Of a DNA stretch of 64,000 nucleotides, positions 1,620 to 45,979 are shown piece after piece. Positions within the stretch are counted from its first letter, which is position 1; each line of letters starts with the position of its first letter. Under the pieces are notes generated by a model. It was not told where the DNA came from and ran no database searches. It saw nothing but the letters and a program-made list of their open reading frames with translations. This DNA comes from Acidisoma cellulosilyticum (GTDB lineage Bacteria; Pseudomonadota; Alphaproteobacteria; Acetobacterales; Acetobacteraceae). Both the position numbers and the translations under genes were made by a program. The stretch spans positions 558,001-622,000 of the forward strand of contig NZ_JAESVA010000002.1 of assembly GCF_020621385.1 (NCBI RefSeq). The letters are read 5' to 3'.

Positions 1620-2384
1620 ATGGAGGCTGAAGTGCCGCCGCCGGCCGCCACCCAAGGCTATCTGCTCGGCGGCAGGATCCGTTACACACAACCGAAAGAT
1701 GGCTATCGGACGGGAATCGAACCGGTTTTTCTGGCCGCCAGCGTGCCGGCCCGGCCGGGCGAGCGCGTGCTGGAGGCAGGCACAGGCGCGGGCGCGGGGC
1801 TGTTATGCCTTGAACGGCGGATCGGTGGCCTGCACGGCATCGGCCTTGAGATCGAACCCGCCATGGCGGCGCTGGCGGCGGCGAATTTCGCGGCCAATGG
1901 ATATAGCGGTCTTGCCGCCCTCTGCGCCGATGTCGCCGCCAGCCCCCTGCCCCGCCTGCTGGGTGCCGAACCCTTCGATCATATCCTCAGCAATCCGCCC
2001 TGGCATGACGCATCAGGCACGCATCCGGCGGACGGCCTGCGCGAGCGAGCGAAGATGGCCGAGGACGGGTTGCTGGAGCGGTGGATTGCCCGGCTTGCGC
2101 CAAGGCTGAAGCCGCGTGGCACCATCACCCTCATCCTGCCGTCCCGCATGATCCCGGAAGCGCTGGCCGCCCTCGGCGCCGGGGGCTGCGGATCGCCCGT
2201 ACTCTTCCCGCTCTGGCCGCGCCCGGCACGGGAGGCGAAGATGCTGCTGGTTCAGGCGACCAAGGGCGGACGCGCGGAATGCCGGATGCTACCTGGGCTG
2301 ATCCTGCATGACGGCCCGGCCTATACGCTGGCCGCCCATGCCATTCTGCGGGACGCGGCGGCGCTGGATCTGCAACGGCGCTAG
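1620..2384 (+). CDS. TrmN6/YfiC-like N6-adenine methyltransferase
   Basis: A 254-residue class I SAM methyltransferase. It has the glycine-rich SAM motif VLEAGTGAGAG near residue 50, an acidic motif II (GIGLEIEPA) and the catalytic SNPPW motif typical of N6-adenine or amino-group methylation. Length and the N-terminal GGRIRYTQPKDGYRTG block fit the TrmN6 family, which modifies A37 of tRNA-Val1. Start chosen at ATG 1620, where family similarity begins. It is divergent from ispB. Target RNA is inferred from family only. Confidence 0.8.
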   Translation: MEAEVPPPAATQGYLLGGRIRYTQPKDGYRTGIEPVFLAASVPARPGERVLEAGTGAGAGLLCLERRIGGLHGIGLEIEPAMAALAAANFAANGYSGLAALCADVAASPLPRLLGAEPFDHILSNPPWHDASGTHPADGLRERAKMAEDGLLERWIARLAPRLKPRGTITLILPSRMIPEALAALGAGGCGSPVLFPLWPRPAREAKMLLVQATKGGRAECRMLPGLILHDGPAYTLAAHAILRDAAALDLQRR

Positions 2385-2462
2385 CCAACCACCCCACCTG
2401 ACGACACCGCTTTCGTTCTCTATAAGAAACGGCATGATCATCGGCGACCGGGGGCCCCTGCC

Positions 2463-3524
2463 ATGGCGATGCAGATATCCAAACGCAACCTGATGACCAA
2501 GGCACCGGCCGCCGGCCTGTTAATGGCGGCGGCGACGGGGCATGAGGCAGCGGCGCAATCAGATAGCCCGCTTCGCATCGTTGGGCTGGAAGAGCATTTC
2601 ATGTTCCCGGAATTCCTCGGCTATCTGGGCGAGACCAAGCAGAACATCAATCCGGCGCTGTTCGACATGGCGGTGCCGATCCTGTCGGATTTCGGCCAAG
2701 GACGGCTGGATGTCATGGACAAGAACGGCGTCGATTTCGTCGTGCTGTCCTTGTCCGGCCCCGGTGTGCAGATCGAACCGGATATAGCCAAAGCCACCAA
2801 GCTCGCGCGCCTTTGCAACGACCGGCTTGCCCAGGAAATACAAAAGCAGCCGACCCGCTATGGCGGCTTCGCCCATCTGGCGCTGCAAGACCCGACGGGC
2901 GCCGCCGACGAGTTGGAACGCTGCGTGCGCCAGCTTGGCTTCAAGGGCGCGCTGATCAATGGCGAGACCAACGGCGTTTATCTCGACGATCGCCGCTACG
3001 ACGTGTTCTGGGAGCGGGTGCAGGCGATCGGCGCGCCGATCTACATCCATCCCGGCAATCCGCCGGATAAAAGCCATATGTATGAGGGCCATCCCGAAAT
3101 GTGGGGACCGGTCTGGAGCTGGGCGGTGGAGACCTGCAGCCACGCCATGCGCCTGATCTTCAGTGGCGTCTTCGACCGCTATCCCGGCGCCATCGTCATC
3201 CTTGGGCATATGGGCGAGACTTTGCCCATCCAACTCTCCCGCCTCGACAGCCGGCTGCCGACCGCCAATCTGCGCTTCCACATCAAGAAGAAGCCATCCG
3301 AGTATGTGCGTCAGAATATCCGGATCACCACCTCGGGCGTGTTTTCCGACAGCGCGCTGCGCTGCTCGCTCGACGCCATCGGACCGGAAGCGGTGATGTT
3401 CTCGATCGACTATCCGTTCGAGAAGACCGAGGACGCGACGGGCTGGATAAAGACCGCCAAGATCAGCGAGGCCGAGCGCGTCGCCGTTGCGTCAGGCAAT
3501 GCCACGACGATTCTCAAACTCTGA
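2463..3524 (+). CDS. Exported metal-dependent amidohydrolase (ACMSD / resorcylate decarboxylase-like)
   Basis: A 353-residue amidohydrolase-2 family protein. Family residues are visible: LEEHF near residue 44 (ExH metal ligands), IYIHPGNPP, LGHMGE and the FSIDYPFE aspartate. Relatives include gamma-resorcylate and 2,3-dihydroxybenzoate decarboxylases and ACMSD, all cytoplasmic. This one carries about 30 extra N-terminal residues (SKRNLM, then an Ala/Gly-rich stretch ending AAAQ) that look like a twin-arginine-type signal peptide with a Lys-Arg pair. Substrate unknown. It stands alone: its upstream neighbour is 78 bp away and repeat copy A follows. Confidence 0.8.
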   Translation: MAMQISKRNLMTKAPAAGLLMAAATGHEAAAQSDSPLRIVGLEEHFMFPEFLGYLGETKQNINPALFDMAVPILSDFGQGRLDVMDKNGVDFVVLSLSGPGVQIEPDIAKATKLARLCNDRLAQEIQKQPTRYGGFAHLALQDPTGAADELERCVRQLGFKGALINGETNGVYLDDRRYDVFWERVQAIGAPIYIHPGNPPDKSHMYEGHPEMWGPVWSWAVETCSHAMRLIFSGVFDRYPGAIVILGHMGETLPIQLSRLDSRLPTANLRFHIKKKPSEYVRQNIRITTSGVFSDSALRCSLDAIGPEAVMFSIDYPFEKTEDATGWIKTAKISEAERVAVASGNATTILKL

Positions 3525-3547
3525 CGTATTGATCGATACGTAAACTC

Positions 3548-3575
3548 TCCCATCGGGTGATTTCGCCTGATGGGA
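3548..3575. repeat. Palindromic hairpin TCCCATC...GATGGGA
   Basis: Inverted repeat TCCCATC / GATGGGA with further G-C and G-T pairs inside, 24 bp after the amidohydrolase stop. A close relative (CCCATCGGGC / GCCCGGTGGG) lies at 14796-14821, also beside a copy of the interspersed repeat. It has no T-run, so it is a weak terminator at best. Confidence 0.6.
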
Positions 3576-3582
3576 TATCGCT

Positions 3583-3745
3583 CTAGAGTCCATCAGGTTT
3601 AGGTGGAAACGACCCCATGCCCCGTCATGGCCGGGCTTGACCCGGTCATCCAGTCCTTGGGCGCCCCAACGAATGGATGCCCGGCTCTGGGGCCGGGCAT
3701 GACGATATTAGGGACAAGCTTCAGTTAAAATCAGACAAACTCTAG
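3583..3745. repeat. Interspersed repeat copy A (core type I)
   Basis: A 163-bp element starting CTAGAGTCCATCAGG and ending CAGACAAACTCTAG. It is nearly identical to 14609-14770. The ends form an imperfect terminal inverted repeat. The core contains an inner palindrome (GCCGGGCTTGACCCGG and ATGCCCGGC...GCCGGGCAT). It has no coding capacity. Its right end overlaps the SCO1 gene: the TAG stop (3742-3744) lies inside the terminal CTCTAG. Confidence 0.9.
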
Positions 3746-4383
3746 CTGGTCGCGGCTTTGCCGATGGCGCGGCGGATGGCCGCCACCATGCCAGTCGCGT
3801 CCAGCTGCGGCGGCAGAATGGCCGCAGCCTCCCCTTGCGGGTTCATCAGATAGAAAAAGGCGGAATGGTTCATCAGATAGGCGCCGCTGCCGCCATTGGG
3901 CACCGGCTGCTTCTCGGCGAAGACGCGAAAATCGCTCTCAGCCTGGTCGATCGCCGTCTGGCTGCCCGTCAGCCCAACAAGGCGCGGGCTGAACAGCGCC
4001 ACGTAGCGGTCCATGACGCTGGGGGTATCGCGGGCCGGGTCGACGGTGATGAAAACGGGCGTGATGGCCGCCCCGTCAGGGCCGAGGCTGGTCAAGACCT
4101 GCACTGCCTTGGCCAGATCGGTCGGGCAGATATCGGGGCAGAAGGTGTAGCCGAAATAGAGGAGCGTCCAATGCCCGCGCAGATTGTCCTGTGTGAAGGG
4201 CTTTCCGCTCGCGGCATCGAGCAGCGCGAAGGGGCCGCCGACCGTAAGCCCCGTCCCCGCCCCTTGGCGCAGCAGGCCCATCAATCTTGGAAAATGCGCC
4301 GGCCCGACAAGGCTGACGACACCGACCGTCAGGATCAGCAAGGCCGCCAAGGCAAAGGATAGTCGTCTCAGGAACCTGATCAT
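3742..4383 (-). CDS. SCO1/SenC copper-binding thioredoxin-like protein
   Basis: A 213-residue protein with an N-terminal membrane anchor (LSFALAALLILTVGVVSLVG) and a thioredoxin-fold domain. The domain carries the copper-binding CPDIC motif (FGYTFCPDICP) and the distal His (MNHSAFFYLM) of SCO1 proteins. It delivers copper to the CuA site of cytochrome c oxidase or acts in periplasmic thiol redox. No oxidase gene is nearby. Start chosen at ATG 4383, immediately before the signal anchor. The frame stays open further upstream through a 12-bp tandem repeat, but that extension looks non-coding. The stop codon is supplied by repeat copy A. Confidence 0.9.
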   Translation of the reverse strand: MIRFLRRLSFALAALLILTVGVVSLVGPAHFPRLMGLLRQGAGTGLTVGGPFALLDAASGKPFTQDNLRGHWTLLYFGYTFCPDICPTDLAKAVQVLTSLGPDGAAITPVFITVDPARDTPSVMDRYVALFSPRLVGLTGSQTAIDQAESDFRVFAEKQPVPNGGSGAYLMNHSAFFYLMNPQGEAAAILPPQLDATGMVAAIRRAIGKAATS

Positions 4384-6332: not shown

Positions 6333-6556
6333 GATCCCCTCCGACATCGGTCCGGAACACAGGTCCTGACCGCGCAAGAGAATGCTGCACCCTGCGCAGG
6401 GATCTCGCCTTGATATCGATCAATAAGAGGGGAGAAAGAGAGAGCGCCTGACAACGCCCGATCTGGCCGTCGGTCTCATCTCGATGATAATTCTAGACTT
6501 TAATCTTGCGCTAGTTTGGCTCGAAACAACGAAACATCAAAAACTTACGAAGATCA

Positions 6557-6583
6557 CGGCCCGCGGCGGCGCGCCACGGGCCG
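6557..6583 (-). terminator. Probable terminator of the cold-shock gene
   Basis: Inverted repeat CGGCCCG / CGGGCCG with a GC-rich inner stem, 15 bases beyond the csp stop codon. On the minus strand it is followed by a moderately T-rich stretch after a short spacer, so it is not a textbook terminator. Confidence 0.5.
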
Positions 6584-6597
6584 CTTTCCTTTGCTGG

Positions 6598-6801
6598 TCA
6601 GACCTTGAGGTTCACGGCCGCCATCTTGCCCTTCTGGCCACGCTCCAGATCGAAGCTGACCTTCTGGCCTTCATTCAGACCGCCCAGACCGGCGCGCTGC
6701 ACGGCGGAGATGTGCACAAACACATCGGCACCGCCATCTTCCGGCTGAATGAAGCCATAGCCCTTGGTAGCATTAAACCACTTAACCGTGCCCACCGACA
6801 T
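6598..6801 (-). CDS. Cold-shock (CspA-family) protein
   Basis: A 67-residue single cold-shock domain: [16 protein letters not shown] (RNP-1 type), then DVFVHISAV (RNP-2) and the C-terminal strand. It is an RNA/ssDNA chaperone of the cytoplasm. Start ATG 6801 fits the family and has GGAGAGA upstream; the frame stays open for 39 more codons but these are not family-like. A leader of more than 100 bases with a small perfect hairpin precedes it. Confidence 0.96.
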
Positions 6802-7118
6802 CGGGTCTCTCCTCGCACCTGGCAACCCGCAACATGCGGGCCAAACTGACTTTTGTTTTGGGGGAGGCGCGCGGCGCGCGGAGACCCGCATACCGAAACA
6901 CGTGTAGCCCAGGATCAAAAGCGCCGCCCGAATCTATGACCGGTTCCAGGCCGGCTGGCTAGGTGGAAATCGCGGGGCTACCGCGGAAAAAAGAGGCGGG
7001 TACCGAAATTCGATAACCATATGCACAAATGCGATTTGCAGCTCTGCCCATGGATCATGTCATGATATCCGGCATTGCCGCGACCGATCGGGATCGAGGC
7101 GCAAGCGGAGAATCGGCG
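6802..7118. other. Divergent intergenic region with csp leader hairpin
   Basis: 317 bases between the csp start and the Rieske gene. A perfect hairpin (CCCGCA, loop ACA, TGCGGG; 6826-6840) lies just upstream of the csp ribosome-binding site and could be part of its leader RNA. A GC-palindromic run (GCGCGCGGCGCGC) lies further out. No operator or promoter for the demethylation block could be assigned with confidence. Confidence 0.5.
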
Positions 7119-8357
7119 ATGGCGGAATACGGTCGGATCAAGGCTGCTCTCGAAGCGCGGCCGCCGCGTCATTCCTTGTCCCAGTATCTCTACAATGATG
7201 ATGCGGTCTTTGCTTTCGACCAGAAGGCGATCTTTCACCGCAGCTGGATCCTGATCGGTTTCGAGATCGAGTTTCCGACCAGCGGCAGCTACCAGTCCAT
7301 CAAGCTCGGCGGCGCGCCCGTCATCATCATCCGCGGCCGCGACGGGGTGCTGCGTGGTTTCCACAACACCTGCCGTCATCGCGGCGCGGAGCTTTGCCCC
7401 GAAGGCTCCGGCAAAAGCGCGCGCCTGGTTTGCCCCTATCATCAGTGGACCTACGATACCGCCGGCAAGCTCATCTTCGCCGGGCGCATGGGCGATGATT
7501 TCGACGCCTCGGCCCACGGCCTGGCACCGATCCATGTCGAGACGCTGGAGGGCACGGTCTATGTCTGCCTGGCCGAGAACCCGCCCGATTTCGCGCCCTA
7601 TGCCCGCGCGGTCGCGCCGATGCTGGCAGCGCATGACTTCAAGAACGCCAAGATCGCCCATCAGGCAACGCTGATGGAAAAGGCGAACTGGAAGCTGGTC
7701 ATGGAAAACGCGCGGGAATGCTATCACTGCGCCGGCCGCCATCCTGAACTTGCCGTCACATTCCCGATCTATGCCAAGGGCAATTTCGAGACGGTGAGCG
7801 ATCATGAGGCGAATTTCGACGCCCGCATGGCGGAACTGGGTCTTGCCGGTGCCCCGGTCGAAGCCGATTGGTGGCAGGCGGCGCGTTTCCCGCTCAACGA
7901 AGGCATGGTCTCCATGACCATGGACGGGCAGCGTGCCGTCAGCAAGCTGATGTGCCCGATCGGCGACGGCGATATCGGCAGCCTGCGCTGGGCGCTGGAG
8001 CCGCATAGTTTCTGCCATTCGACCGGCGACTTCACCTTCATGTTCACCTGCATTCCCATCAGCACGAAGGAAACCCTCGTGCTCGGCAAGTGGCTGGTTC
8101 ACAAGGATGCGGTCGAAGGCGTCGACTACGACCTGGAAAATCTCGTGAAGCTCTGGGACGTGACCAATATAGAGGATCGCGATCTTTGCGAGCTCAATCA
8201 GCGTGGCGTCGATAGCCCCGGCTATCGCCCCGGCCCTTATTCCGAGGTTGCGGAGTCTCTGGTACAGCGCTTCACCAGCTATTACGTCGCCAAGGCGCTG
8301 GACTATATCGACGAGGTCGAGGGCGAAAGCCGGCTCGCCGCTCTGGCCGCCGATTGA
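7119..8357 (+). CDS. Rieske non-heme iron oxygenase, GbcA/carnitine-oxygenase type
   Basis: A 412-residue alpha subunit. The Rieske [2Fe-2S] ligands are CRH (C85, H87) and CPYHQW (C105, H108). The mononuclear iron site follows in ENARECYHCAGRHPEL (H203, H208). This architecture matches glycine-betaine, carnitine and stachydrine oxygenases, which hydroxylate an N-methyl group so that it leaves as formaldehyde. Start ATG 7119 has GGAG 8 bases upstream. It is the first gene of a six-gene block and overlaps the reductase gene by 4 bases. The true substrate is unknown. Confidence 0.9.
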   Translation: MAEYGRIKAALEARPPRHSLSQYLYNDDAVFAFDQKAIFHRSWILIGFEIEFPTSGSYQSIKLGGAPVIIIRGRDGVLRGFHNTCRHRGAELCPEGSGKSARLVCPYHQWTYDTAGKLIFAGRMGDDFDASAHGLAPIHVETLEGTVYVCLAENPPDFAPYARAVAPMLAAHDFKNAKIAHQATLMEKANWKLVMENARECYHCAGRHPELAVTFPIYAKGNFETVSDHEANFDARMAELGLAGAPVEADWWQAARFPLNEGMVSMTMDGQRAVSKLMCPIGDGDIGSLRWALEPHSFCHSTGDFTFMFTCIPISTKETLVLGKWLVHKDAVEGVDYDLENLVKLWDVTNIEDRDLCELNQRGVDSPGYRPGPYSEVAESLVQRFTSYYVAKALDYIDEVEGESRLAALAAD

Positions 8358-9421
8358 GCGTGGCGGACAAGCCGAACAAGGCGATCTGGCGCGGCGGAGA
8401 GGATCTGCTGCGCTGCCTGGGCGTGACGCTGGAAGCCCCCGGCGTCAAAACCTTTCGCTTCGCCCCCGTCAGCGGCGCTGTCGTGCAGTTTCACGCCGGC
8501 CAATTCGTGACGCTGCGCCTGCCGCAGGCCAGCGGCCATGTCTGGCGTTGCTTCACTATCGCGTCCTCCCCGCTGCAGGAAGACGCGATCGACCTGACCA
8601 TCAAGGCACAAGCCAGCGCGGATGCGATCAACGCGTCCGGCAGCGCCTGGATGCATCATCATCTGCAAGCCGGGATGGAGATCGCGGCGCGGTCGCCGAC
8701 CGGACCTTTCTGCCTGATGCACCCGCCCGAGCGGCCGCTGCTGCTGGTCTCGGCCGGCAGCGGCGCCACCCCCATGGCCGCCATCGCCCGTTTTCTGCGC
8801 GATATCGGGGACCGCACGCCGGTCCATTACATCCATCTCGCCCGCAGCGCCGCCGACTTCCTGTTCAAGCCCGAGATCGAGTCGATCGCGGCCGAGCTTG
8901 GCAGCTGGAAGCTTGACTGGCTGACGAGCGCCGAGCAGGGTCGCCCCTCTGCCGAAACCTTCGCGGCAATGGCCCCCGATCTTGCAGAGCGGGAGGTGTT
9001 TTGCTGCGGCCCGGCCGGCTTCATGGCGGCGATCGAGACCGCTCACGCTCAGGCCGGCGGCACGGCCGACGCCTTCCGCAAGGAGGCGTTCCTGGCCATC
9101 CCGATCCCAGAACTCGCGACCACGCATAAGGCCGAGCCGGAGCCCGGCGTGACGCCTGTCGGCTTCACGCTGCGATTCGAGCCGTCCGGCAAGACCGTTG
9201 CCATCGGGCCGGAAGACACGGTGCTGACGGCCGCCGGCAAGCTCGGCATTCCCATCTCCTATGCCTGCGGCGACGGCATTTGCGGCACCTGCCGCATCAC
9301 CAAGCTGGAAGGCGCGGTTGAGATGAACCACCAGGGCGGCATCGAGGATGACGAAGTCGCCGATGGCGAGATCCTGGCCTGCTGCGCCTATCCCCGATCC
9401 AATCTTGTCTTGAAAGTCTGA
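8354..9421 (+). CDS. Ferredoxin-NAD(P)H reductase partner with plant-type [2Fe-2S] domain (GbcB-like)
   Basis: A 355-residue electron-transfer subunit. An FAD domain (RCFTIASSP) and an NAD-binding domain (LLLVSAGSGATPM, CCGPAGFM) precede a C-terminal ferredoxin with CGDGICGTC and a distal Cys in EILACCAYP. It passes electrons from NAD(P)H to the Rieske oxygenase. Start is a TTG at 8354 that overlaps the oxygenase stop; a GTG at 8360 is an alternative. Translational coupling supports a two-component enzyme. Confidence 0.9.
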   Translation: MSVADKPNKAIWRGGEDLLRCLGVTLEAPGVKTFRFAPVSGAVVQFHAGQFVTLRLPQASGHVWRCFTIASSPLQEDAIDLTIKAQASADAINASGSAWMHHHLQAGMEIAARSPTGPFCLMHPPERPLLLVSAGSGATPMAAIARFLRDIGDRTPVHYIHLARSAADFLFKPEIESIAAELGSWKLDWLTSAEQGRPSAETFAAMAPDLAEREVFCCGPAGFMAAIETAHAQAGGTADAFRKEAFLAIPIPELATTHKAEPEPGVTPVGFTLRFEPSGKTVAIGPEDTVLTAAGKLGIPISYACGDGICGTCRITKLEGAVEMNHQGGIEDDEVADGEILACCAYPRSNLVLKV

Positions 9422-9423
9422 CC

Positions 9424-10689
9424 ATGGCTGACCCCAAAGACGGCCCTGCCTTGTCGCTGGAGACGCTGGCCATCGGCGCCGGCTACGATCCGGCCGAGCA
9501 TAACGGATCGGCCAAGCCGCCGATCTATATGACTTCGACCTTCGTCTATCCCTCCGCCGCCGTGGCGCGCGCCGTGCATCAGGCCTTTTTCGACGGCGAC
9601 GTGCCGGAGCGGTCAGGCAAGAACGGCTTCATCTATGCCCGCCTCGACCATCCGAATCTGGTCATGGCGCAGACGCGAATCGCGGCCCTCGACCGTGCCG
9701 AGGACAGCGCCCTGTTCTCCTCCGGCATGGCCGCCGTCTCCACCCTCGCCCAGTGTTTCCTGCGGCCGGGCGACAGCGTCATGCATAGCCGCCCGATCTA
9801 TGGCGGCACGGATATGTTTCTGAACACCCATATGACGCAGATGGGCGTTCATCCCTTCGGCTTTACCGATGGCGTGGATGAGGCTCATCTGGCGCAGGTG
9901 GCGGATGCTGCCATGGCGAAAGGTCCGCTGACCTTGATCATGGTGGAAAGCCCTGCCAACCCGACCTGCGCCATTGCCGATATCGCGCTGATCAGCCGGC
10001 TGGCGGACCGGATTGCGCTTGCCCAGGGCCGGCGGCCGATCATCTCGGTTGACAATACCTTCCTCGGTCCCTTCCTGCAGAGCCCGCTGGAACACGGCGC
10101 CGATCTTTGCCTGACCTCGCTCACCAAATATGCCGGCGGGCATAGCGATTTCATGGGCGGCAGCGTCAGCGGGTCTGCGGCACTCGTCGGCCGCCTCAAG
10201 AAGCTGCGCACGCTGCTCGGCAATCATGCCGATCCGCATAATTGCTGGATGCTGCTGCGCTCGGTCGAAACCATGGCGCTGCGCACGGAACGCGCGGTTG
10301 CCAATGCAAAGACGATCGCGAGCTTTTTGCGCGACCATCCCAAGGTGATCCGCATCACCTATCTGGACTTCCTGGCGGAAGGCTCCGCCGCCCGCGCAGT
10401 CTATGACCGGCAATGCGCGGGGCCTGGGTCCACCTTCTCCTTCGATGTCGAGGGTGGTGAGGCCGGCGCCTTCCGCTTTCTGGACAAGCTCCGCCTACTG
10501 CGCTTCGCGGTCAGCCTGGGCGGGACGGAAACCTTGATCTGTCACCCGGCCACGACCACCCATTACGCCGTGCCGGAGGAACTCCGCATGGCCGTGCATA
10601 TCGGCCCCGCCACCATGCGCGTCTCGATCGGCATCGAAACCGCGGCCGATCTGATCGCCGATCTTACCCAAGCGCTGGAGGCCGTCTGA
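9424..10689 (+). CDS. Cys/Met-metabolism PLP enzyme (cystathionine gamma-synthase/lyase family)
   Basis: A 421-residue fold-type I PLP enzyme. The PLP lysine lies in TSLTKYAGGHSD. FSSGMAAVS (phosphate-binding), VESPANPT and SVDNTF are also visible, and SLGGTETLICHPATTTH near the C-terminus is typical of the family. Such enzymes do beta- or gamma-elimination or replacement on amino acids with a leaving group. Its place inside a demethylation operon (2 bases after the reductase, 1-base overlap with the next gene) suggests it acts on the demethylated amino acid rather than in methionine biosynthesis; that is inference. Confidence 0.85.
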   Translation: MADPKDGPALSLETLAIGAGYDPAEHNGSAKPPIYMTSTFVYPSAAVARAVHQAFFDGDVPERSGKNGFIYARLDHPNLVMAQTRIAALDRAEDSALFSSGMAAVSTLAQCFLRPGDSVMHSRPIYGGTDMFLNTHMTQMGVHPFGFTDGVDEAHLAQVADAAMAKGPLTLIMVESPANPTCAIADIALISRLADRIALAQGRRPIISVDNTFLGPFLQSPLEHGADLCLTSLTKYAGGHSDFMGGSVSGSAALVGRLKKLRTLLGNHADPHNCWMLLRSVETMALRTERAVANAKTIASFLRDHPKVIRITYLDFLAEGSAARAVYDRQCAGPGSTFSFDVEGGEAGAFRFLDKLRLLRFAVSLGGTETLICHPATTTHYAVPEELRMAVHIGPATMRVSIGIETAADLIADLTQALEAV

Positions 10690-12242
10690 TGGAAGACGAA
10701 GACGTCGTTTCCGACTTTCACGCCATCGGCGAGAAACACACCAAAGCCGACGAGCATGCCGAGATCGTCGTCATCGGCGCGGGTGCCGCCGGGCTCGCTG
10801 CCGCCATTACGGCTGCCAAAGCCGGCGCGCAAGTGATGCTGGTGGACGAGAATCCGCTCGGCGCCGGGCTGATCGGCATGGATGTGCCGCTGCTCTTCGG
10901 CAATCGCTGGACGGCGGCGGTGCAGAACCAGGGCCGCATGCTGGAACAGGTTCTGACCGCCAATCCTGGCCTGGAAGAAGCGTTCGAACTCGGGATCGAC
11001 GTCAAGCTCGGCACCTATGCCTGGGGCGCCTTTACCGGCGGACCCAATCTGCGGTCCCTGCCTGAACCCGTCGTCGGTCTGGCGGACGAGACCCGCTCCT
11101 GGATCGTGGGCTTCCGGCGCCTGATCATCGCGACCGGCGCACGCGATCTGGTCTATGCCTTCAAGGGGTTCGAGACGCCGGGCGTGGTCGGCGCGCTGGG
11201 CCTGACCGCGCTCATCCAGACCTACGCTTCATTCAATGGCCAGCGCATCGTCATTCTGGGAACGGGCGACCTGGCGGTTGCGACCGCCACCATGGCACTG
11301 GATGCCGGGTATGATGTCGCTGCCTTGGTCGAAGTGCGGGATACGCCGCAGGCCGATGTCTCGGCGCTTATCGCGCGTGGCGTCGAGATCGTCACCGGCC
11401 ATGCCATTCTGGAAGCCCTGGGCAATGCCGAGGGCGTCACCGCTGCCCTGCTCGCGCCCGTCGCGGGTGGCGAGACCCGCAGCATCGCCTGCGACACCAT
11501 TTGCCTCGCGGTCGGGGCCGTGCCGGTGATCGACCTCGCCGATGTCGCGGGCGCCAAAATTGCGCGGAACGAGGCAGGGGCTTTCGTGCCGGGCAAGCTG
11601 CCGGCCGGCGTCTTCGTCACCGGTGACGCAGCAGGTCTGGGAACAGACGCCGCTGCCGCTGGCGTGGCGGCGGCAACCGCCGCCCTCGCCTCGCTCGGTC
11701 ATGATGTTCAAGCCAGCGCTGTGCCGTCAGAAGCGACCGCGCTGCCTGCCGACACGGACGCCTATCGCATGGACTGGATGCGCGCGCTGATGACGACCGG
11801 CGGCCAGGACGTCATCGCCTGTTCCTGCGAGGAGGTGTCGCGCCGCGACCTGCTGGACGTGCAGCCGCCGCGCTACCTGGCCGCACCCACCGACAAGCAC
11901 AACAGCCTCAAGCAACTGGCCGAGGACGGGCCTGTCAGTCAGGATCAGATCAAGCGCCTGACGCGCGCCTGCATGGGCCCCTGTCAGGCGCGTCGCTGCC
12001 GCGAGCAGGTGGCGATGATCATGGCGATCGGCACGGACCGGCCGCTCGGCTCCATCGCGCTGGCCGGCTACCGCGCGCCCGTGCGCCCGCTGCCCCTCGG
12101 CGTGCTGGCGGCGGCCTCCGAAACGCCCGGCATGGTCGAAGGCTGGAACGTCTGGTTCGGCATCCGCACCCAATGGATTCCCTATGACGATATCGGCACG
12201 GAGCGCGAAGCTGAGCGCGCCGGCCGCATGGCGCATTTCTGA
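10689..12242 (+). CDS. FAD/NAD(P)-dependent dehydrogenase subunit, HcnB/OoxA type
   Basis: A 517-residue pyridine-nucleotide-disulfide-type flavoprotein. It has an N-terminal FAD site (VVIGAGAAGLAAA), an internal NAD site (RIVILGTGDLAVA) and a C-terminal BFD-like cluster domain with CSCEE and CMGPCQARRC cysteines. This layout is that of the A subunit of opine oxidase, HcnB and the alpha subunit of heteromeric sarcosine oxidase. The partner B subunit is probably the next gene. A separate small ferredoxin subunit (HcnA type) is absent from the block. Confidence 0.85.
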   Translation: MEDEDVVSDFHAIGEKHTKADEHAEIVVIGAGAAGLAAAITAAKAGAQVMLVDENPLGAGLIGMDVPLLFGNRWTAAVQNQGRMLEQVLTANPGLEEAFELGIDVKLGTYAWGAFTGGPNLRSLPEPVVGLADETRSWIVGFRRLIIATGARDLVYAFKGFETPGVVGALGLTALIQTYASFNGQRIVILGTGDLAVATATMALDAGYDVAALVEVRDTPQADVSALIARGVEIVTGHAILEALGNAEGVTAALLAPVAGGETRSIACDTICLAVGAVPVIDLADVAGAKIARNEAGAFVPGKLPAGVFVTGDAAGLGTDAAAAGVAAATAALASLGHDVQASAVPSEATALPADTDAYRMDWMRALMTTGGQDVIACSCEEVSRRDLLDVQPPRYLAAPTDKHNSLKQLAEDGPVSQDQIKRLTRACMGPCQARRCREQVAMIMAIGTDRPLGSIALAGYRAPVRPLPLGVLAAASETPGMVEGWNVWFGIRTQWIPYDDIGTEREAERAGRMAHF

Positions 12243-12254
12243 GGGGTGCGGGGA

Positions 12255-13469
12255 ATGTCAGAGATGAAAAAGAATGCCTCGGTCATCGTCATCGGCGGCG
12301 GCGTCACCGGCCTCAGCGCCGCCTGGTGGCTGGCGCGGGACGGCGTCGATGTTTTGCTCATCGAGAAGGGTATCGTGGGCTGGGAGGCATCGGGCCGCAA
12401 TGGCGGCGGCTGCACCCATTACCAAAGCCCGCTTTTCAACGAGGAGCAGCGGCTTTGGCCGCAAATGGATGAGCTGCTGGGCTATCCGACCGAGCATCGG
12501 CAGGAGCGCGTCATCATGGCGCTGACCGAGCGGCAGCTGGCGCAATATCAGGATCACGGCGAGATCTGCGCCGCCATGGGCTATCGCTACGAGACGCTGG
12601 ACCCGAAGCAGACGCGCGAGCTGGTGCCCTTCGCCGGCGATAACGTCGTGGGCTCGGTCTATTACCACTTCGGCGGCCAGGCCAATCCGCAGCGCACCGT
12701 GCAAGCCTATGCCTGGGCTTTGCAGGATCTCGGCGGCCGCATTCTGCAGCACACCGCCGTCTCCTCCATCATCGTCGAGGCCGGCAAGGTGAAGGGCGTC
12801 GAGACCTCGCTCGGCCGCTTCGACTGCGACCATCTGGTGCTCGCCGCCGGCCCGCAGACCGGCGCGCTGCTGGAGACGATCGGCGTCTATCTGCCCGTCG
12901 CCCCGGCGCGGGCCGAGATGATCGTGACGGAACCGCTGCCGCTGATGAAGGTCGGCGGCGTCGACGGTAACGGCCTGTACGGCCGGCAGACGTTGCGCGG
13001 CAATCTGGCCTATGGCGGCGGGCCGCATGAATGGCTGGCCGATACCACGGCAGACGGCCGCCCCCCCGAAGGCGGTCCGATGAGCCGTCCCGCCACCCAG
13101 CTGCTGCAAAATCTGTCGCGCCGGTTGATGGAGCTTTTCCCGAAGGCCGGCCATGTGCGCGTCATCCGGTCCTGGGCCGGGATCATCGAGAATACGCCGG
13201 ACGGGCGCCCGGTGATCGACCGGCTGTCGGAGCCCGATAACCTGACTGTGACCACCATGAGCGGCGTCGGCTTCGGCCTGTCGCCGGCCACCGGTCACGC
13301 GATCCGCGACCTGGTGATGGACGGGGTTTGCAGTTTCACGGATATCGGCAAGCTCAGCCTCGGCCGTTTCGCGAACCTGCCGCGCGATTGGCGCGTGCGG
13401 CAGGGCTGGGTTCCGCCTATCGTGCAGGATTATGATTCAGACGGACGTGCGCAGACCGCGCAGGCTTGA
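12255..13469 (+). CDS. FAD amine oxidase/dehydrogenase subunit, HcnC/OoxB/SoxB type
   Basis: A 404-residue DAO-family flavoprotein with VIVIGGGVTGLSAAWW at the N-terminus and GWEASGRNGGG for the flavin ring. It also carries the C-terminal SGVGFGLSPATGHAI segment of glycine/sarcosine/opine oxidases. It probably oxidises a secondary amine in a complex with the preceding HcnB-like subunit. Start ATG 12255 is preferred because GAGGGG lies 8 bases upstream; a GTG at 12246 is in frame. The gap to the preceding gene is 12 bases. Confidence 0.87.
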   Translation: MSEMKKNASVIVIGGGVTGLSAAWWLARDGVDVLLIEKGIVGWEASGRNGGGCTHYQSPLFNEEQRLWPQMDELLGYPTEHRQERVIMALTERQLAQYQDHGEICAAMGYRYETLDPKQTRELVPFAGDNVVGSVYYHFGGQANPQRTVQAYAWALQDLGGRILQHTAVSSIIVEAGKVKGVETSLGRFDCDHLVLAAGPQTGALLETIGVYLPVAPARAEMIVTEPLPLMKVGGVDGNGLYGRQTLRGNLAYGGGPHEWLADTTADGRPPEGGPMSRPATQLLQNLSRRLMELFPKAGHVRVIRSWAGIIENTPDGRPVIDRLSEPDNLTVTTMSGVGFGLSPATGHAIRDLVMDGVCSFTDIGKLSLGRFANLPRDWRVRQGWVPPIVQDYDSDGRAQTAQA

Positions 13470-13483
13470 GAGGGACGAAGGCA

Positions 13484-14608
13484 ATGGCCGCCAAGGGTAA
13501 GGTTCTGATCGTCGGTGCGGGCATCGCGGGTCTTTCGACCGCGTGGAACCTGAAGCGGCGCGGTTACGATGTCGAAATTTTCGACCGGGGGCCGATCCCC
13601 AATCCGATCAGCTCCTCCTGGGACGAGCATCGCATTACCCGCCATGCTTACGGCGAGTTCGAGGGCTATGCCCATCTGATGCCCTATGCCTTCAAGATGT
13701 GGGACCGGCTTTGGAAGGATCTGGGCGCCACGCATTACGAGCCGACGGGGGCGACCTATTTCATCCATGAGGAGACGCCCTGGTATCACGGGACCTCCAC
13801 CGCTCTGACGGAAATGGGCGTCCGCTACCGCGATATTCCGCTGGCCAAGGCCGAGCACCGGTTTCCGATGTTCAATCTGGAGACGGTGACGCGGGTGGTG
13901 GAGACGGACGGCGCCGGCATGCTGTTCCCCTACCGCATCGTGCGCGGGCTGGTGAACTTCCTGGGTGCGCATGGCGTGACCTTCCATGCCTTGCATCAGG
14001 TCAGCGCGATCGACGCCGAAAAGGGCAGCCTCACCGCGAACGGCAAGACCTTTACCGGCGACTATGTCGTGGTCGCGGCCGGTGCTTGGGCGGACAAGCT
14101 GGTGCCGGAACTCCGCCAGGACGCCATGCCGTCGCGTCAGGCCGTCATCTTCCTGGCCCCGCCGCCCGAACTGACGGATGCCTGGCGCGAAGCCGGCGTG
14201 ATGGCCGATCTGGGCGACGAGACCAGCTGCTACGTGCTGCCGCCGCGCCGTGGCATGCGCCTGAAGATCGGCGATCACGTCTTCACCCGCCGCGGCGACG
14301 CGGATGAGGATCGCCGCGCGACCGACGAGGATGTGGCGCGGCTGATGCGCGTGCTGCCGAAGGTGCTGCGCAATTACGAGGGCTACCAGATCCTGGAACG
14401 TAAGGCCTGCTTCTATACCGTGACCGAGGATGAGCATTTCATCCAGAAGCCGCTGGGACCGAAGGGCTGGCTGATCAGTGCCTGTTCCGGCCATGGCTTC
14501 AAGCTGGGCGCGCTAACCGGAGAGCTTGCGGCCCAGGCCATTACCGGGGAGCGGCCGGCCGCCGAGATCACCGAAATTGCCGCCGGGCGGCAGCGTATCG
14601 CGGCCTGA
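13484..14608 (+). CDS. Monomeric sarcosine oxidase / N-methyl amino acid oxidase family
   Basis: A 374-residue flavoprotein with VLIVGAGIAGLSTAWN and the SSSWDEHRITRHAY block of the MSOX/SolA group. Cys309 in ERKACFYTVTEDEHF aligns with the cysteine that binds FAD covalently in monomeric sarcosine oxidase. It would oxidise a mono-N-methyl amino acid to formaldehyde and the free amine, with H2O2. Start ATG 13484 has a purine-rich site upstream, 15 bases after the preceding stop. Last gene of the block; repeat copy B starts directly behind its TGA. Confidence 0.88.
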   Translation: MAAKGKVLIVGAGIAGLSTAWNLKRRGYDVEIFDRGPIPNPISSSWDEHRITRHAYGEFEGYAHLMPYAFKMWDRLWKDLGATHYEPTGATYFIHEETPWYHGTSTALTEMGVRYRDIPLAKAEHRFPMFNLETVTRVVETDGAGMLFPYRIVRGLVNFLGAHGVTFHALHQVSAIDAEKGSLTANGKTFTGDYVVVAAGAWADKLVPELRQDAMPSRQAVIFLAPPPELTDAWREAGVMADLGDETSCYVLPPRRGMRLKIGDHVFTRRGDADEDRRATDEDVARLMRVLPKVLRNYEGYQILERKACFYTVTEDEHFIQKPLGPKGWLISACSGHGFKLGALTGELAAQAITGERPAAEITEIAAGRQRIAA

Positions 14609-20582: not shown

Positions 20583-20658
<76 letters not shown>

Positions 20659-26970: not shown

Positions 26971-27045
<75 letters not shown>

Positions 27046-38750: not shown

Positions 38751-40688
38751 TCAAAAACCCCACTGCACCTGACGGCTATTGCCCTGTTGCAGGTTGCGGT
38801 AGCGCGCCATGGCCATCAGCGGAAAGAACAGCCGATAACCGTGGTAGCGGAGGTAGAAGACCTTCGGGAAGCCGACGGCGTTATAGGGTGCCTCGTCCCA
38901 CTCGCCGTCATCCTTCTGCACTGATTGCAGCCAGGCGATGCCGCGCGCGACGGCGGGATGATCCGCCTGCCCGGCCGCCATCAGGCCCAGCACGGCCCAG
39001 GCCGTCTGGCTCGGCAGGCTTTCGTGATACTCGCCCGGCGGCGCGCCTTCGAAACTGGCGCAATCCTCACCCCAACCGCCTTCCGGCCGCTGCTTCGCGA
39101 TCAGCCAGTCGATCGCCCGCGTCATCATCGGGTCATCCTGCGGGACGCCAGCCGCGTTGAGCGCGCAGAGCACGGACCAGGTGCCGTAGATGTAGTTGGT
39201 ACCCCAGCGGCCGAACCAGCAGCCGTCCTTCTCCTGATCGGCGCGCAGGAAATCGAGCGCGCGGGCGATCACGGGCAGGTCTTCCGCATGCCCAAGCTGA
39301 GCGAGGAAGGATACGCAGCGCGCCGTCACATCGGCTGTCGGCGGGTCAAGCAAGGCGCCGTGGTCGGCGAAGGGGATATGATTGAGGAAGTCGTGGTTGT
39401 TATCGGCGTCGAAGGCGCCCCAGCCGCCGTTCTTGCTCTGCATGCCGACCACCCAGGCGCGTGCCCGTTCGATGGACTCCGCATGGGCCGGATCGCCGTT
39501 GCGATGGAGCAGCATGCCGACCACGGCCGTGTCGTCCACATCCGGGTAGTGGTCGTTATTGTATTGGAAAGCCCAGCCGCCCGGCGGCAAGTCCGGCTTG
39601 ACCTCGGCCCAGTCGCCACGCAATTCGGTGATCTGTTTGGCCTTGAGCCAATTGGCCGCGGCCTCCACCCCCGCCGCACCCAGGCCCTGGGACTCGGCCA
39701 GGGCATGGGCGGCGAGCCCCGTATCCCAAATCGGCGAAAGACAAGGCTGGCAATAGGCTTCCCCGTCCTTGACCGTCACCAGCTTCTGCACGGATGTCCA
39801 GGCGATCGCGAAATCCGGATGATCCGGCGCATAGCCCAGCACGTCGAACATCATCACGGAATTGGCCATGGCCGGGTAGATCGCGCCCAGCCCGTCCTCG
39901 CCGTTCAAACGCTCCTGCACCCAGGCGACGGCGGCATCGACATGCTTCTGCCGGCGACCTTGGGAGATGCGCGGCTCCACCGCCTGCAGCACGCCGTCGA
40001 CCGCCTTGAAGAAATGCCCCCATTGGTTGCGATAGGGGCCGCGAATCCAGTCATTGACCCGGTCGGGCGGCGTCGCGAACAGCTCAGCCACATGAATGTC
40101 GCGCGGATTGCGCGCGCGGGGCTTCAGCGCCATCAGCACCAGCAGCGGCACGATGACAGTGCGCGACCAATAGCTCACCTTCAGCAGATGGAAGGGGAAC
40201 CAGCGCGGCAGGCCCATGATTTCGATCGGCATCACCGGCACGGCGCGCCAGGGCACTTCGCCGAACAGCGCCAGCTGAATGCGGGTGAAGACATTGGTCC
40301 GCTCGGCCCCGCCAGCGGCGAGGATCGCTTTGCGGGCACGAGCCATATGCGGCGCGTTGATATCGTCGCCGATCGCCTTGAGGGCGAAATAGGCCTTCAC
40401 GCTCGCCGAGATATTGAAGACGCCGCCGTGGTAGAGCGGCCAACCGCCGTGATCGCCCTGGATGCGGCGCAGATAGACGCCGATCTTCTGCTGCAGCGGC
40501 GCGTCGATCCGGTCGAGGTAATGTTCCAGCAGCACATATTCGGCCGGGATGGTCGCATCAGCCTCCAGCTCGAAGACCCAATGGCCGTCACCGTTCTGAC
40601 GTGACGTGAGCGCGCCTTCGGCGCGTTCGATCGCCGCAGTCAGATCATCGGTCGCAATTGTGGTGTCGAGCAGAATATCGTGCGGCAT
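38751..40688 (-). CDS. shc: Squalene-hopene cyclase
   Basis: A 645-residue class II triterpene cyclase. The protonating DVDDTA motif is near residue 383. QW repeats are visible as QNGDGHWVFE, QGDHGGWPLYHGG, QSKNGGWGAFD, QEKDGCWFGRW and QRPEGGWGE. It makes hopene/hopanol from squalene at the inner membrane. It is the last gene of the hpnABCDE-shc operon, 7 bases after hpnE. A convergent small gene ends 9 bases away. Confidence 0.97.
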   Translation of the reverse strand: MPHDILLDTTIATDDLTAAIERAEGALTSRQNGDGHWVFELEADATIPAEYVLLEHYLDRIDAPLQQKIGVYLRRIQGDHGGWPLYHGGVFNISASVKAYFALKAIGDDINAPHMARARKAILAAGGAERTNVFTRIQLALFGEVPWRAVPVMPIEIMGLPRWFPFHLLKVSYWSRTVIVPLLVLMALKPRARNPRDIHVAELFATPPDRVNDWIRGPYRNQWGHFFKAVDGVLQAVEPRISQGRRQKHVDAAVAWVQERLNGEDGLGAIYPAMANSVMMFDVLGYAPDHPDFAIAWTSVQKLVTVKDGEAYCQPCLSPIWDTGLAAHALAESQGLGAAGVEAAANWLKAKQITELRGDWAEVKPDLPPGGWAFQYNNDHYPDVDDTAVVGMLLHRNGDPAHAESIERARAWVVGMQSKNGGWGAFDADNNHDFLNHIPFADHGALLDPPTADVTARCVSFLAQLGHAEDLPVIARALDFLRADQEKDGCWFGRWGTNYIYGTWSVLCALNAAGVPQDDPMMTRAIDWLIAKQRPEGGWGEDCASFEGAPPGEYHESLPSQTAWAVLGLMAAGQADHPAVARGIAWLQSVQKDDGEWDEAPYNAVGFPKVFYLRYHGYRLFFPLMAMARYRNLQQGNSRQVQWGF

Positions 40689-40695
40689 CGTGGTT

Positions 40696-41958
40696 TTATA
40701 TTTGCCTCATCAGCATGCGCGCGGCGGATTCGCCGGAAAGAATACTGCCTTCAATCGTGGACGGCAGCCCTGTATCGGTCCAGTCGCCCGCCAGGGCAAG
40801 GTTTGCAAGTCCTGAGCCGCTGGCGGCTGGCCTGCGTTTTTGTTGCAGTGCGGTGGCAGCGAAGGTCGCGCGCTTCTCGCGCACCAGCCGATAGGCGGGC
40901 ATCGACTCGGGCAGATCTGGGTAGGCCGCGCGGCAATCGGCCCAGGCGCGGGCCGCCATGACCTCACCCGGCATCTCCGCCCAGCGATTGGCCGCGCTGA
41001 TGGTGACGGAGACGATGCCCGGTTTGACGAAGACCCATTCGGCCAGGCCGCCGACGATTCCGGTAAAAGGCGCCTCACCCGGCGCAACCTCAGCCAGAAA
41101 GTGGATATTGGCGATCGCCTCGAAGGCGTCCGGCACCGTCAGGTCCGGCAGCAGCCCACCTGCAACGGGCGCCGGCACGGCCAGGATGACGCTGTCCTGC
41201 GGCCCGACCTTCACCGCGCCATCGGCGAAATGCAGGATTGAGACGCGATTGCCGGCGCGGTCCAGGGACAGCAGGCGCTGGCCGAGCCCGACCTTGGCAC
41301 CACGGGCCGACAGCCAAGCGATCGCCGGGTCGATGAAACTCTCGGTCAGCCCTTCGGCCGGCACCAATGGCAGGCAGGCGGCCCCGCCCGCGCCCAATGT
41401 CTGGGCCACAATCGCCTGCATCAGCGGCGCATAGGCCTCGTCCGGCATCGTATTAAGGCCGGCAATGGCCAGCGGCTCCAGCAACCGGCGATAGACCGGG
41501 CCGGCATCGCCGATTGCCGCAGCCACAGAGCCGCTCGCTTTGCGAAGACGGAGAAGAGAGAGATAGTCGCGCCAGGTCGTGCCCGGCACGCGGCGCTTGC
41601 GGTCAAAAATCCAGAGCGGAATCCGCCCCGAATCGAGCCGCAACACCCAGCGCAAGCCGTCCGTCCGGTCGATGAAGGGAAAGACCGGTGTTTTCGGTCC
41701 CACCATCGTCTGCCGCGCGCCGATGCGGTCCAGATAGCGCATGGCGCCGGGATTGCCCGACAGCAGCAGGTGATTGCCGTTGTCGATGCGGCAGCCGAGT
41801 TCCCGGTCGAAATAGGAGCGGCAGCGCCCGCCGGCCTGCGGGCCAGCTTCATGCACCGTCACTGGCCTGCCCGTCTCGGCCAGCACCATGGCGGCCGACA
41901 GACCCGCAAGCCCGGCGCCGATGACGTGGACCCGACCCGCTTGTCCGCCGGCCGCCAT
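40696..41958 (-). CDS. hpnE: Hydroxysqualene dehydroxylase
   Basis: A 420-residue flavin amine-oxidase-like protein: VHVIGAGLAGLSAAMVLAE at the start and GNHLLLSGNPGAMRYL, with the closing LALAGDWTDTGLPSTIEGSI. HpnE reduces hydroxysqualene to squalene. Start ATG 41958 is two bases after the hpnD stop, so it is preferred to an in-frame ATG 45 bases earlier inside hpnD. Confidence 0.93.
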   Translation of the reverse strand: MAAGGQAGRVHVIGAGLAGLSAAMVLAETGRPVTVHEAGPQAGGRCRSYFDRELGCRIDNGNHLLLSGNPGAMRYLDRIGARQTMVGPKTPVFPFIDRTDGLRWVLRLDSGRIPLWIFDRKRRVPGTTWRDYLSLLRLRKASGSVAAAIGDAGPVYRRLLEPLAIAGLNTMPDEAYAPLMQAIVAQTLGAGGAACLPLVPAEGLTESFIDPAIAWLSARGAKVGLGQRLLSLDRAGNRVSILHFADGAVKVGPQDSVILAVPAPVAGGLLPDLTVPDAFEAIANIHFLAEVAPGEAPFTGIVGGLAEWVFVKPGIVSVTISAANRWAEMPGEVMAARAWADCRAAYPDLPESMPAYRLVREKRATFAATALQQKRRPAASGSGLANLALAGDWTDTGLPSTIEGSILSGESAARMLMRQI

Positions 41959-41960
41959 GC

Positions 41961-42833
41961 TCAAGCCGTCAGCATCCGTACGGCGAAGGCCAGCTTTTTC
42001 CATTTCGGCAGGCTCACCCGCTCAGCCGGGCGCAGGAAATTCGTGCGCTCCATCTGGGTCAGCAGCGCCTTATAGGGGGCGGCCATCAGCCGCGCCGGTT
42101 TAATGGCCTTCTGGTTGCACAGCGCCATCGCCTCCTCGGCCCCCGCATAATGGTCCCGCGCCAGGGCCGCGACGCGCTGACAGACGCGCGGCAGGCCGGG
42201 GGATTTCAAAGCCACCTGCGGATTGGGCGGCACGCTCTCCTCCGCCAGCCATTCGCGCGGCAGATAAAGACGCGACCGCTCGGCATCCTCCCCCACATCG
42301 CGCAGGATATTGGTCAGCTGCAAGGCACGGCCCAGGCAATAGGCGACGCGGTCAGCGGCGGGCGAGCTATCGCCGAAAGCGCGGACGGAGAGACGACCCA
42401 CCGCGCTCGCCACCCGGTCGCAATAAAGGTCGAGCACGGCCATCGCCGGGGCCACGATCTCCCGCTCCGCGTCCATCTGCATGCCGTCGATGACGGCCAG
42501 AAAGTCGATCGCCCGCAGGTCGAAGGCGCGGGTGGAGAGCAGCATCATGCGCGTCAGCGCGCTATCGGTGCGGCCTTCCAGCAGCGCATTCACGCGGTCA
42601 CGCCAGCCGTCCAGCATTTCCCGTTTCGCGACCAGCGCGCCGGGTTCGTCGGCGATATCATCCACCACGCGGCAGAAGGCATAGACGGAATAGACGGCCG
42701 CGCGCCGATCCGGCGGCAGCATCCGCATCCCCCAATAGAAGGAGGAGCCGGAGCGGCGGACCAGCGTCTCGATCTCCTCCAAATCGGCGGGCTGCGCGCC
42801 CAGCGGCGGCACCGGCAGCTTCGCGAGGCTCAT
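41961..42833 (-). CDS. hpnD: Presqualene diphosphate synthase
   Basis: A 290-residue squalene/phytoene-synthase family protein with the two Asp-rich motifs CRVVDDIADE and LTNILRDVGEDAE, and the SSFYWGMRMLP start region. HpnD condenses two farnesyl diphosphates to presqualene diphosphate. Its ATG overlaps the hpnC stop (ATGA). Confidence 0.95.
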   Translation of the reverse strand: MSLAKLPVPPLGAQPADLEEIETLVRRSGSSFYWGMRMLPPDRRAAVYSVYAFCRVVDDIADEPGALVAKREMLDGWRDRVNALLEGRTDSALTRMMLLSTRAFDLRAIDFLAVIDGMQMDAEREIVAPAMAVLDLYCDRVASAVGRLSVRAFGDSSPAADRVAYCLGRALQLTNILRDVGEDAERSRLYLPREWLAEESVPPNPQVALKSPGLPRVCQRVAALARDHYAGAEEAMALCNQKAIKPARLMAAPYKALLTQMERTNFLRPAERVSLPKWKKLAFAVRMLTA

Positions 42834-45821: not shown

Positions 45822-45979
45822 GGCTTCCTCCTCAATACAGTATCCGTGCACATGAATTGGCGCGCCCTCATGGGGCCGGTATAGAAGCCACCGACGCCCC
45901 TGGCGCAAGCGCGTATCCAAGGCAAGAGACAATTGATTGACCATTCCAAGACCCGGTTCCCGGGTACGGCAGCACAGGC

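Follow-up and report, generated by a model that had tools for sequence, protein, structure and literature searches.

Gene content of the block

The window, i.e., the whole 64,000 nucleotide stretch analyzed here, originates from the alphaproteobacterium Acidisoma cellulosilyticum (contig NZ_JAESVA010000002.1, positions 558,001–622,000). It contains six open reading frames (ORFs) on the plus strand that together span positions 7119–14608 and form a gene block that looks like a conserved, previously undescribed degradation pathway. The first gene (7119..8357) encodes a Group V-type Rieske oxygenase, identified by a C-x-H...C-x2-H cluster motif, the mononuclear-iron motif ENARECYHC and phylogenetic trees, and proposed to perform a first N-demethylation. 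An alternative ATG is found at 7029; the start at 7119 is preceded by GGAG and agrees with relatives. The second gene (8354..9421) starts with TTG, overlaps the first by 4 bases and encodes the reductase of the Rieske enzyme, with FAD, NAD, and 2Fe-2S domains. The third (9424..10689) encodes a pyridoxal phosphate (PLP) enzyme of the cystathionine gamma-synthase (CGS)/methionine gamma-lyase (MGL) family, which belongs to a clade of its own and is a proposed beta/gamma-lyase. It is followed by genes for an HcnB/OoxA-like flavoprotein with an SO_alpha_A3 region (10689..12242), an HcnC/OoxB-like DAO flavoprotein that is the proposed amine dehydrogenase for the second N-demethylation (12246..13469), and a monomeric sarcosine/N-methyltryptophan oxidase-like enzyme proposed to carry out the last N-demethylation (13466..14608).

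In gene order, hidden Markov models (HMMs) match Rieske plus Ring_hydroxyl_A, FAD/NAD/2Fe-2S reductase, Cys_Met_Meta_PP, Pyr_redox_2 plus SO_alpha_A3, DAO, and DAO. The families named for the six genes in an initial annotation of the sequence are all borne out by the ORFs and HMM matches, and the junctions of −4, +2, −1, +3, and −4 bases are even tighter than the 15 bases or less that it gave. The G+C content by codon position, 0.78–0.84 at the third and 0.44–0.52 at the second position in all six ORFs, fits real genes. The HcnB- and HcnC-like proteins match only the generic Pyr_redox_2, SO_alpha_A3, and DAO models. The last oxidase scores 190.9 bits with the N-methyl-L-tryptophan oxidase model NF008425 and does not reach its cut-off of 257, and it keeps the Cys context ACFYT...DEHF, which we take to be the covalent flavin site of monomeric sarcosine-oxidase-like enzymes.

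The Rieske oxygenase and the PLP enzyme

In total 12 loci, the window included, carry a PLP gene of the same clade (see below), and their Rieske oxygenases are here called block Rieskes. Group V Rieske oxygenases, which act on quaternary amines, are described as having a Cys-X-X-Cys pair at the mononuclear iron (PMC10952381). This pair is present as ECYHC in the window Rieske and in all 11 other block Rieskes. A second source separates Group Va (CntA type), with an aromatic residue at CntA position 203, from Group Vb (GbcA/Stc2 type), with Asn (PMC7948474). The position is Ala or Gly in 12/12 block Rieskes, i.e., the residue of neither group, and it is Ala in two close relatives that lack the PLP gene (L030 and L032; loci and genomes are designated L and G); among 13 other reference loci it is Asn in all but L130, which has Ser. 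Judged by this diagnostic position the block Rieske appears to be a third type, outside both of the published classes of oxygenases for quaternary amines. In the catalytic domain Arg260, Tyr301, and Trp305 of Stc2 are replaced by Gln, Glu (Asp in L165), and Phe in the block Rieskes, which also share a Trp-Trp-Gln run, and the changed positions probably line the substrate pocket.

The trees place the block Rieskes together with L030 and L032 in a separate set (support 100/99 and 99/99), apart from the GbcA proteins of Pseudomonas and Halomonas and from Stc2. A position firmly within proven glycine betaine or carnitine enzymes, which the initial annotation had named as evidence against its interpretation, was thus not found for GbcA; CntA was compared pairwise, outside the trees, and gave a weak match of 124 bits. 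The best NCBIfam match of the window Rieske is the GbcA model NF058607, at 428.9 bits relative to a cut-off of 670. None of the genes of the 10 block genomes and 14 control genomes searched passed this cut-off, and the model may therefore be narrow.

The PLP enzyme exceeds the cut-off of the PRK07049 cystathionine gamma-synthase family model (NF005455; 512.6 bits, cut-off 504) and falls below that of the methionine gamma-lyase model TIGR01328 (300.9 bits, cut-off 549.7). Its closest solved relative, 5ijg, matches at 439 bits, so the fold is not in doubt. The PLP enzymes of the 12 loci form their own clade (support 100/100, stem 0.66), and all 12 keep Tyr59, Arg61, Tyr114, Asp186, Lys211, and Arg375 (MGL numbering), to which we ascribe catalytic roles in PLP elimination; Ser208 is Ala in L132 and L166. 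Cys116, which presumably has a role in methionine gamma-lyase, is Gly in 12/12, and position 339, where Glu is taken to mark cystathionine gamma-lyase/synthase, is Val in 12/12, both replacements being common to nearly all relatives outside the clade as well. A further 14 positions have residues that are fixed among the clade members (11 or 12 of 12) and that nine relatives lack; position 241, which presumably lines the neighboring active site, is one of them. From these residues the enzyme looks active as an elimination catalyst, and it should be neither a typical methionine lyase nor, by residue rules, a cystathionine enzyme.

Conservation and gene neighborhood

The closest named locus is that of Acidisoma silvae (L029), 86–96% alike across all six genes, and all six genes are present in 5/5 Acidisoma genomes (the window and L109–L112). 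Beyond this genus the block occurs, partial or rearranged, in seven alphaproteobacterial loci. As all six genes are kept throughout Acidisoma and the PLP gene stands beside a Rieske gene in the seven further loci, the arrangement is not due to chance. The Rieske and PLP genes, with HcnB–HcnC in 11/12 loci, form the core, since the reductase is found in 6/12 and the monomeric oxidase in 8/12.

Searches that started from the PLP enzyme recovered 11 of the 12 clade loci, the window's included, and only L031 was reached from the Rieske side alone. Among 398 genomes of the phylum (E 1e-120) four matches of at least 58% identity were found (the own genome, G391, G773, and G691), all with an adjacent Rieske gene. 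Among 385 genomes of the class (E 1e-120) the own genome, G391, and G075, and among 200 genomes of one order (E 1e-135) G391 and G908, likewise had the Rieske gene adjacent. The loci in G773, G691, and G908 are L164, L165, and L166, respectively. G075 (L131, all six genes) and G391 (L132, with Rieske, PLP, HcnB, and HcnC) also came from a scan for HcnC in the 385 genomes, and a search of plasmids with the PLP enzyme added Novosphingobium capsulatum (L138). In 12/12 clade loci the matching Rieske gene lies just upstream of the PLP gene, with only the reductase intervening where it is present, in agreement with the co-occurrence that had been suggested as a check. Clade members are about 58% or more identical to the window PLP enzyme and all others at most 52% (E 1e-120, 398 and 385 genomes). 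None of 12 PLP loci outside the clade (43–51% identical; L113–L120 taken at E 1e-5 and L167–L170 at 1e-20) has a Rieske, HcnB, HcnC, or monomeric sarcosine oxidase-like gene in the stretch taken. Three stretches of viral contigs matched a search pattern, and none of them encodes a relative of the PLP enzyme.

From the Rieske side the linkage is looser. Among the best 80 of 594 Rieske relatives in named genomes two have the PLP gene, A. silvae (L029) and a Pseudoxanthobacter metagenome-assembled genome (MAG; L031). These two belong to four Rieskes of at least 50% identity in this set, the others being L030 and L032, which are without it, as are the remaining 76 (at most 48% identity). The expectation that the PLP gene is kept in relatives is thus correct for L029 and L031 and fails for L030, L032, and the 76 more distant Rieskes.

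A LysR gene is divergent from the Rieske gene in 7/7 loci outside Acidisoma, and these regulators are orthologues, 48–80% alike over about 300 residues, compared with 25–42% over only 67–152 residues for two control LysRs. Several neighbors agree with the stepwise N-demethylation proposed in the initial annotation. First, of the four loci that lack the monomeric oxidase, two have genes for soxB, soxD, and soxA, which lie directly after HcnC in L165 and about 5 kb away on the opposite strand in L132. SoxB of L165 scores 662 bits (cut-off 529), and neither SoxA reaches the 1164 bits of its model (1021 in L165 and 1084 in L132); the gamma subunit in L165, a 180 amino acid (aa) protein without a Pfam match, is named by position only. 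Second, HcnC of L132 is followed by an S-(hydroxymethyl)glutathione dehydrogenase gene (FrmA, 640 bits, cut-off 544) and by an ORF that by eye resembles S-formylglutathione hydrolase, as expected if the block makes formaldehyde. Third, L131 and L031 have betaine transporters of the OpuAC type next to the block, and at E 1e-8 the L131 binding protein has a single solved relative, a glycine betaine/proline-binding protein.

Adjoining the block in the window are, by eye, a cold-shock gene upstream and apaG downstream. Farther away a minus-strand gene run at 38751–45944 resembles a hopanoid cluster, with ORFs that by eye are similar to squalene-hopene cyclase and hpn genes, and genes for tRNA-Ala (cgc) and tRNA-Thr (ggt) are located at 20583–20658 and 26971–27045, respectively.

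Proposed pathway and known systems

We suggest that the block is dedicated to oxidative N-demethylation of a quaternary amino acid other than glycine betaine, followed by PLP-dependent beta- or gamma-elimination, and lean slightly toward this reading as a whole. The pathway would run in parallel to a glycine-betaine-type system of the same genomes and act on another trimethylammonio amino acid. The Rieske oxygenase and its reductase would remove the first methyl group as formaldehyde, the HcnB/HcnC pair the second, and the monomeric sarcosine-oxidase-like enzyme, or in some relatives a SoxBDA-type oxidase, the third. The primary amine thus exposed could form an external aldimine with the PLP enzyme, which would expel the beta or gamma substituent to give a 2-oxo acid, ammonia, and the leaving group. 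As the aldimine needs a primary amine the demethylations are placed before the elimination. Support is good for the demethylations, and a lyase step by the PLP enzyme is plausible; we infer the order of steps, the assignment of flavoenzymes to them, the action of the PLP enzyme as a final lyase, and the substrate.

A number of observations weigh against this proposal, which is based on sequence comparison. The 12 block Rieskes alone are not recovered as one clade because L030 falls among them, although forcing them together is not rejected (p-AU 0.112), and the clade PLP gene was not found in the draft genomes of L030 and L032 (best matches 47 and about 35%). HcnC relatives of about 60–65% identity occur without a PLP gene (L130, L133–L137, and L139–L141), and HcnBC are therefore not specific to this pathway. 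L166 consists of the Rieske and PLP genes without flavoproteins, adjoining LysR and a TonB receptor, and no close HcnC was found in its genome, G908 (best 31%). The stretch of G908 taken for its DMGDH/Sox genes has no second Asn-type Rieske, and neither a LysR gene nor a transporter was recognized beside the Acidisoma blocks in the gene calls read. Finally, in L132 the LysR gene of the block is directly followed, on the minus strand (2217–3976), by genes for a dioxygenase resembling TmpA (358 bits, cut-off 400) and for a protein with an HD domain, and this pair would be expected to yield glycine betaine. A 423-aa protein beside the Rieske–PLP pair of L166 was considered as a serine hydrolase and rejected, as it has aspartyl protease and PDZ domains; it gives no support for an esterase.

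Four other views of the substrate or of the order of steps were considered. First, the substrate could be a sulfur betaine, the example given in the initial annotation, with the PLP enzyme as a C–S lyase: once demethylated, a sulfur amino acid (e.g., methionine or a cysteine with an S-substituent) would release a thiol. We consider a sulfur betaine unlikely. The chemistry of the CGS/MGL family would suit it, and L031 (16484–18369) and L164 (2502–4343) both encode, beside the last oxidase and in different arrangements, a binding protein similar to PhnD (47% alike between the two loci) and an FA_desaturase protein (51%). Homologues of the two proteins matched 221 and 86 plasmid records, of which 12, chosen by the analyst and not at random, were opened; one without annotation (L209) was dropped, and in 8 of the remaining 11 sulfur-acquisition genes lie within about 10 kb. 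The 8 loci are, however, non-independent, as they represent about three island types, the homologues recur in rhizobial islands, and the pair was present in 2 of the 22 sequences searched (the 12 block loci, PLP-less relatives, and sister loci). The pair suggests a link to sulfur and does not settle the substrate. Moreover, Cys116 of MGL is not kept, the TmpA-like pair of L132 points to glycine betaine, and ergothioneine, the common sulfur betaine, has no leaving group for PLP elimination chemistry. As a separate observation, in a Rhizobium daejeonense plasmid (L214:8980–16676) PhnD and FA_desaturase genes are followed by an annotated hutH, which is below both HutH cut-offs (474 of 524 and 454 of 539 bits), and by a molybdopterin hydroxylase gene; this run is possibly a histidine-betaine (ergothioneine) lyase pathway.

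Second, the substrate could come from the betaine lipid diacylglyceryl-N,N,N-trimethylhomoserine (DGTS), a membrane lipid of mosses, algae, and fungi whose head group carries a gamma-ether. In its deacylated form, glyceryl-O-(N,N,N-trimethyl)homoserine, or as free homoserine betaine, it would be processed by a PLP enzyme that splits the bond between the ether oxygen and the gamma-carbon or dehydrates homoserine, to give glycerol, 2-oxobutanoate, and ammonia. This origin is quite unlikely, and the narrower proposal that the PLP enzyme is the missing ether-bond cleaver, releasing glycerol by gamma-elimination after three demethylations, is a little less probable again. The homoserine betaine head group is, to our knowledge, the only abundant natural N-trimethyl alpha-amino acid with a gamma-oxygen leaving group; against this reading, ethers are poor leaving groups. 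O-alkyl homoserine chemistry has a precedent in the CGS family, as dihydrorhizobitoxine is a homoserine ether. Its formation is credited to the C-terminal part of RtxA, which is 41% identical to an O-acetylhomoserine sulfhydrolase (PMC3222319), and a 2023 review presumes that enzymes breaking the ether bond of DGTS exist and treats them as not identified (PMC9892843). Gly in place of Cys116 and Val at 339 speak against a typical methionine lyase and a cystathionine enzyme, although almost every relative outside the clade shares these residues. A gene for a CocE-type hydrolase comes after HcnC in L138 and after the Rieske gene of L032, which has no PLP partner, but among the block loci it is found in just 1/12, and the gene calls read show no consistent linkage to a gene for a lipase or for glycerol or 2-oxobutanoate. 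The PhnD/desaturase pair of two loci and the TmpA-like pair of L132 likewise point elsewhere. BtaA (PF11899) was found in 0/10 block genomes searched (N. capsulatum and the Pseudoxanthobacter MAG lay outside the search), which argues against DGTS synthesis by these hosts themselves; a betaine-lipid pathway would therefore be one of scavenging.

Third, the block could serve glycine betaine itself, with the PLP enzyme acting on glycine or formaldehyde, e.g., in an aldol-type condensation to serine. The pair resembling TmpA/TmpB that adjoins the conserved LysR in L132, the Sox genes of L165 and L132, the OpuAC transporters, and GbcA as the best model match all raise this possibility. The GbcA score is, however, far below its cut-off, even if no block or control gene passed, and the Asn is Ala or Gly in 12/12 block Rieskes, with other catalytic-domain positions changed as well. 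In addition, when a second cluster was taken from seven block genomes, a second Rieske with the Asn motif was found in six of them, the host's included (G000, G004, G075, G391, G691, and G773). It is accompanied by a DMGDH-like gene and SoxA/SoxB in G391 and G691, by SoxB/D/A and a reductase in G773, and by a reductase in G000 and G004; in G075 a reductase is joined by large genes that by eye look like dgcAB/etf. SoxB of L165 is one of two copies in its genome, and it and the SoxB of the other cluster are only about 52% alike. As most of the block genomes looked into have a second, Asn-type Rieske, with a second cluster of the glycine betaine type in G075, G391, G691, and G773, glycine betaine is an improbable substrate. 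Separately from these, a further Rieske (43%), HcnB (40%), and HcnC (60%) cluster without a PLP gene is located in the same genome, G000 (L130; G000:C11:42000–61500, genes 6415–11546); it adjoins nitrilase-like and ABC transporter genes (by eye), and its Rieske is the one with Ser at the Va/Vb position. Fourth, it is very improbable that the PLP enzyme acts first, on a conjugate with a free amino-acid end, to release a quaternary amine for the other five enzymes: no part of the block is linked as tightly as the Rieske–PLP pair, which in L166 occurs without the rest, and PLP enzymes require a primary amine that a betaine lacks, but no abundant conjugate of this type can be named and no gene specific to one was seen.

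The proposal of demethylation followed by PLP-dependent elimination is thus a partly supported version of the initial interpretation. We know of no betaine pathway that includes a PLP enzyme, and neither an operon with this combination of genes nor bacterial breakdown of the DGTS head group was found in the open-licence PMC literature searched. The conserved pathway would pair a PLP enzyme with a Rieske oxygenase that at the diagnostic position is outside both published classes. Should the substrate be a betaine with a beta or gamma substituent, the block would give access to its carbon, nitrogen, and methyl groups in a way undescribed in the literature searched; if it is the DGTS head group, the PLP enzyme would be the ether-cleaving enzyme listed as a gap in the 2023 review (PMC9892843). 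The six enzymes can be assayed directly.

Among the known systems closest to the block is that of glycine betaine catabolism (gbcAB-dgcAB-soxBDAG). Both use a Rieske oxygenase with its reductase for the first methyl group and flavoenzymes for the later ones, and OpuAC transporters are found near some block loci. In contrast to gbcAB, the block Rieske lies outside the Pseudomonas/Halomonas GbcA group, is 43–46% identical to the Rieskes of L034, L045, L050, L068, and L094, has Ala or Gly for Asn, and coexists with a second Asn-type Rieske in 6/7 genomes looked into; HcnBC take the place of DMGDH/DgcAB, and the PLP enzyme is added. The stachydrine demethylase Stc2 (PDB 3vca) is likewise a Group V demethylase with the CxxC pair and matches the block Rieske at 366 bits, but it belongs to a separate clade, and its Asn, Arg260, and Trp305 are Ala/Gly, Gln, and Phe in the block. 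With methionine gamma-lyase and PRK07049 the PLP enzyme shares the catalytic Tyr, Arg, Lys, and Asp, and it exceeds the PRK07049 cut-off; it differs by its own clade of 12 with 14 clade-specific positions and by its linkage to a Rieske gene in 12/12 loci. With the TmpA/TmpB trimethylaminoethylphosphonate pathway the block shares the TmpA-like and HD proteins that adjoin its LysR in L132, but in 1/12 loci only, with a TmpA score below the cut-off and TmpB identified by position and HD domain only. Finally, a sister operon of Paracoccus plasmids (L140, L141) and Ancylobacter polymorphus plasmid pB (L139) has the Rieske, reductase, HcnB, and HcnC genes (HcnC 61–65%) and betaine-type transporters. 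Its Rieske is 41–45% identical to that of the block and of the Asn type in L139 and L140, and in contrast to the block it has no PLP gene in the stretch and includes a GlxA regulator, MmgE/PrpD, and nitrilase-type genes.

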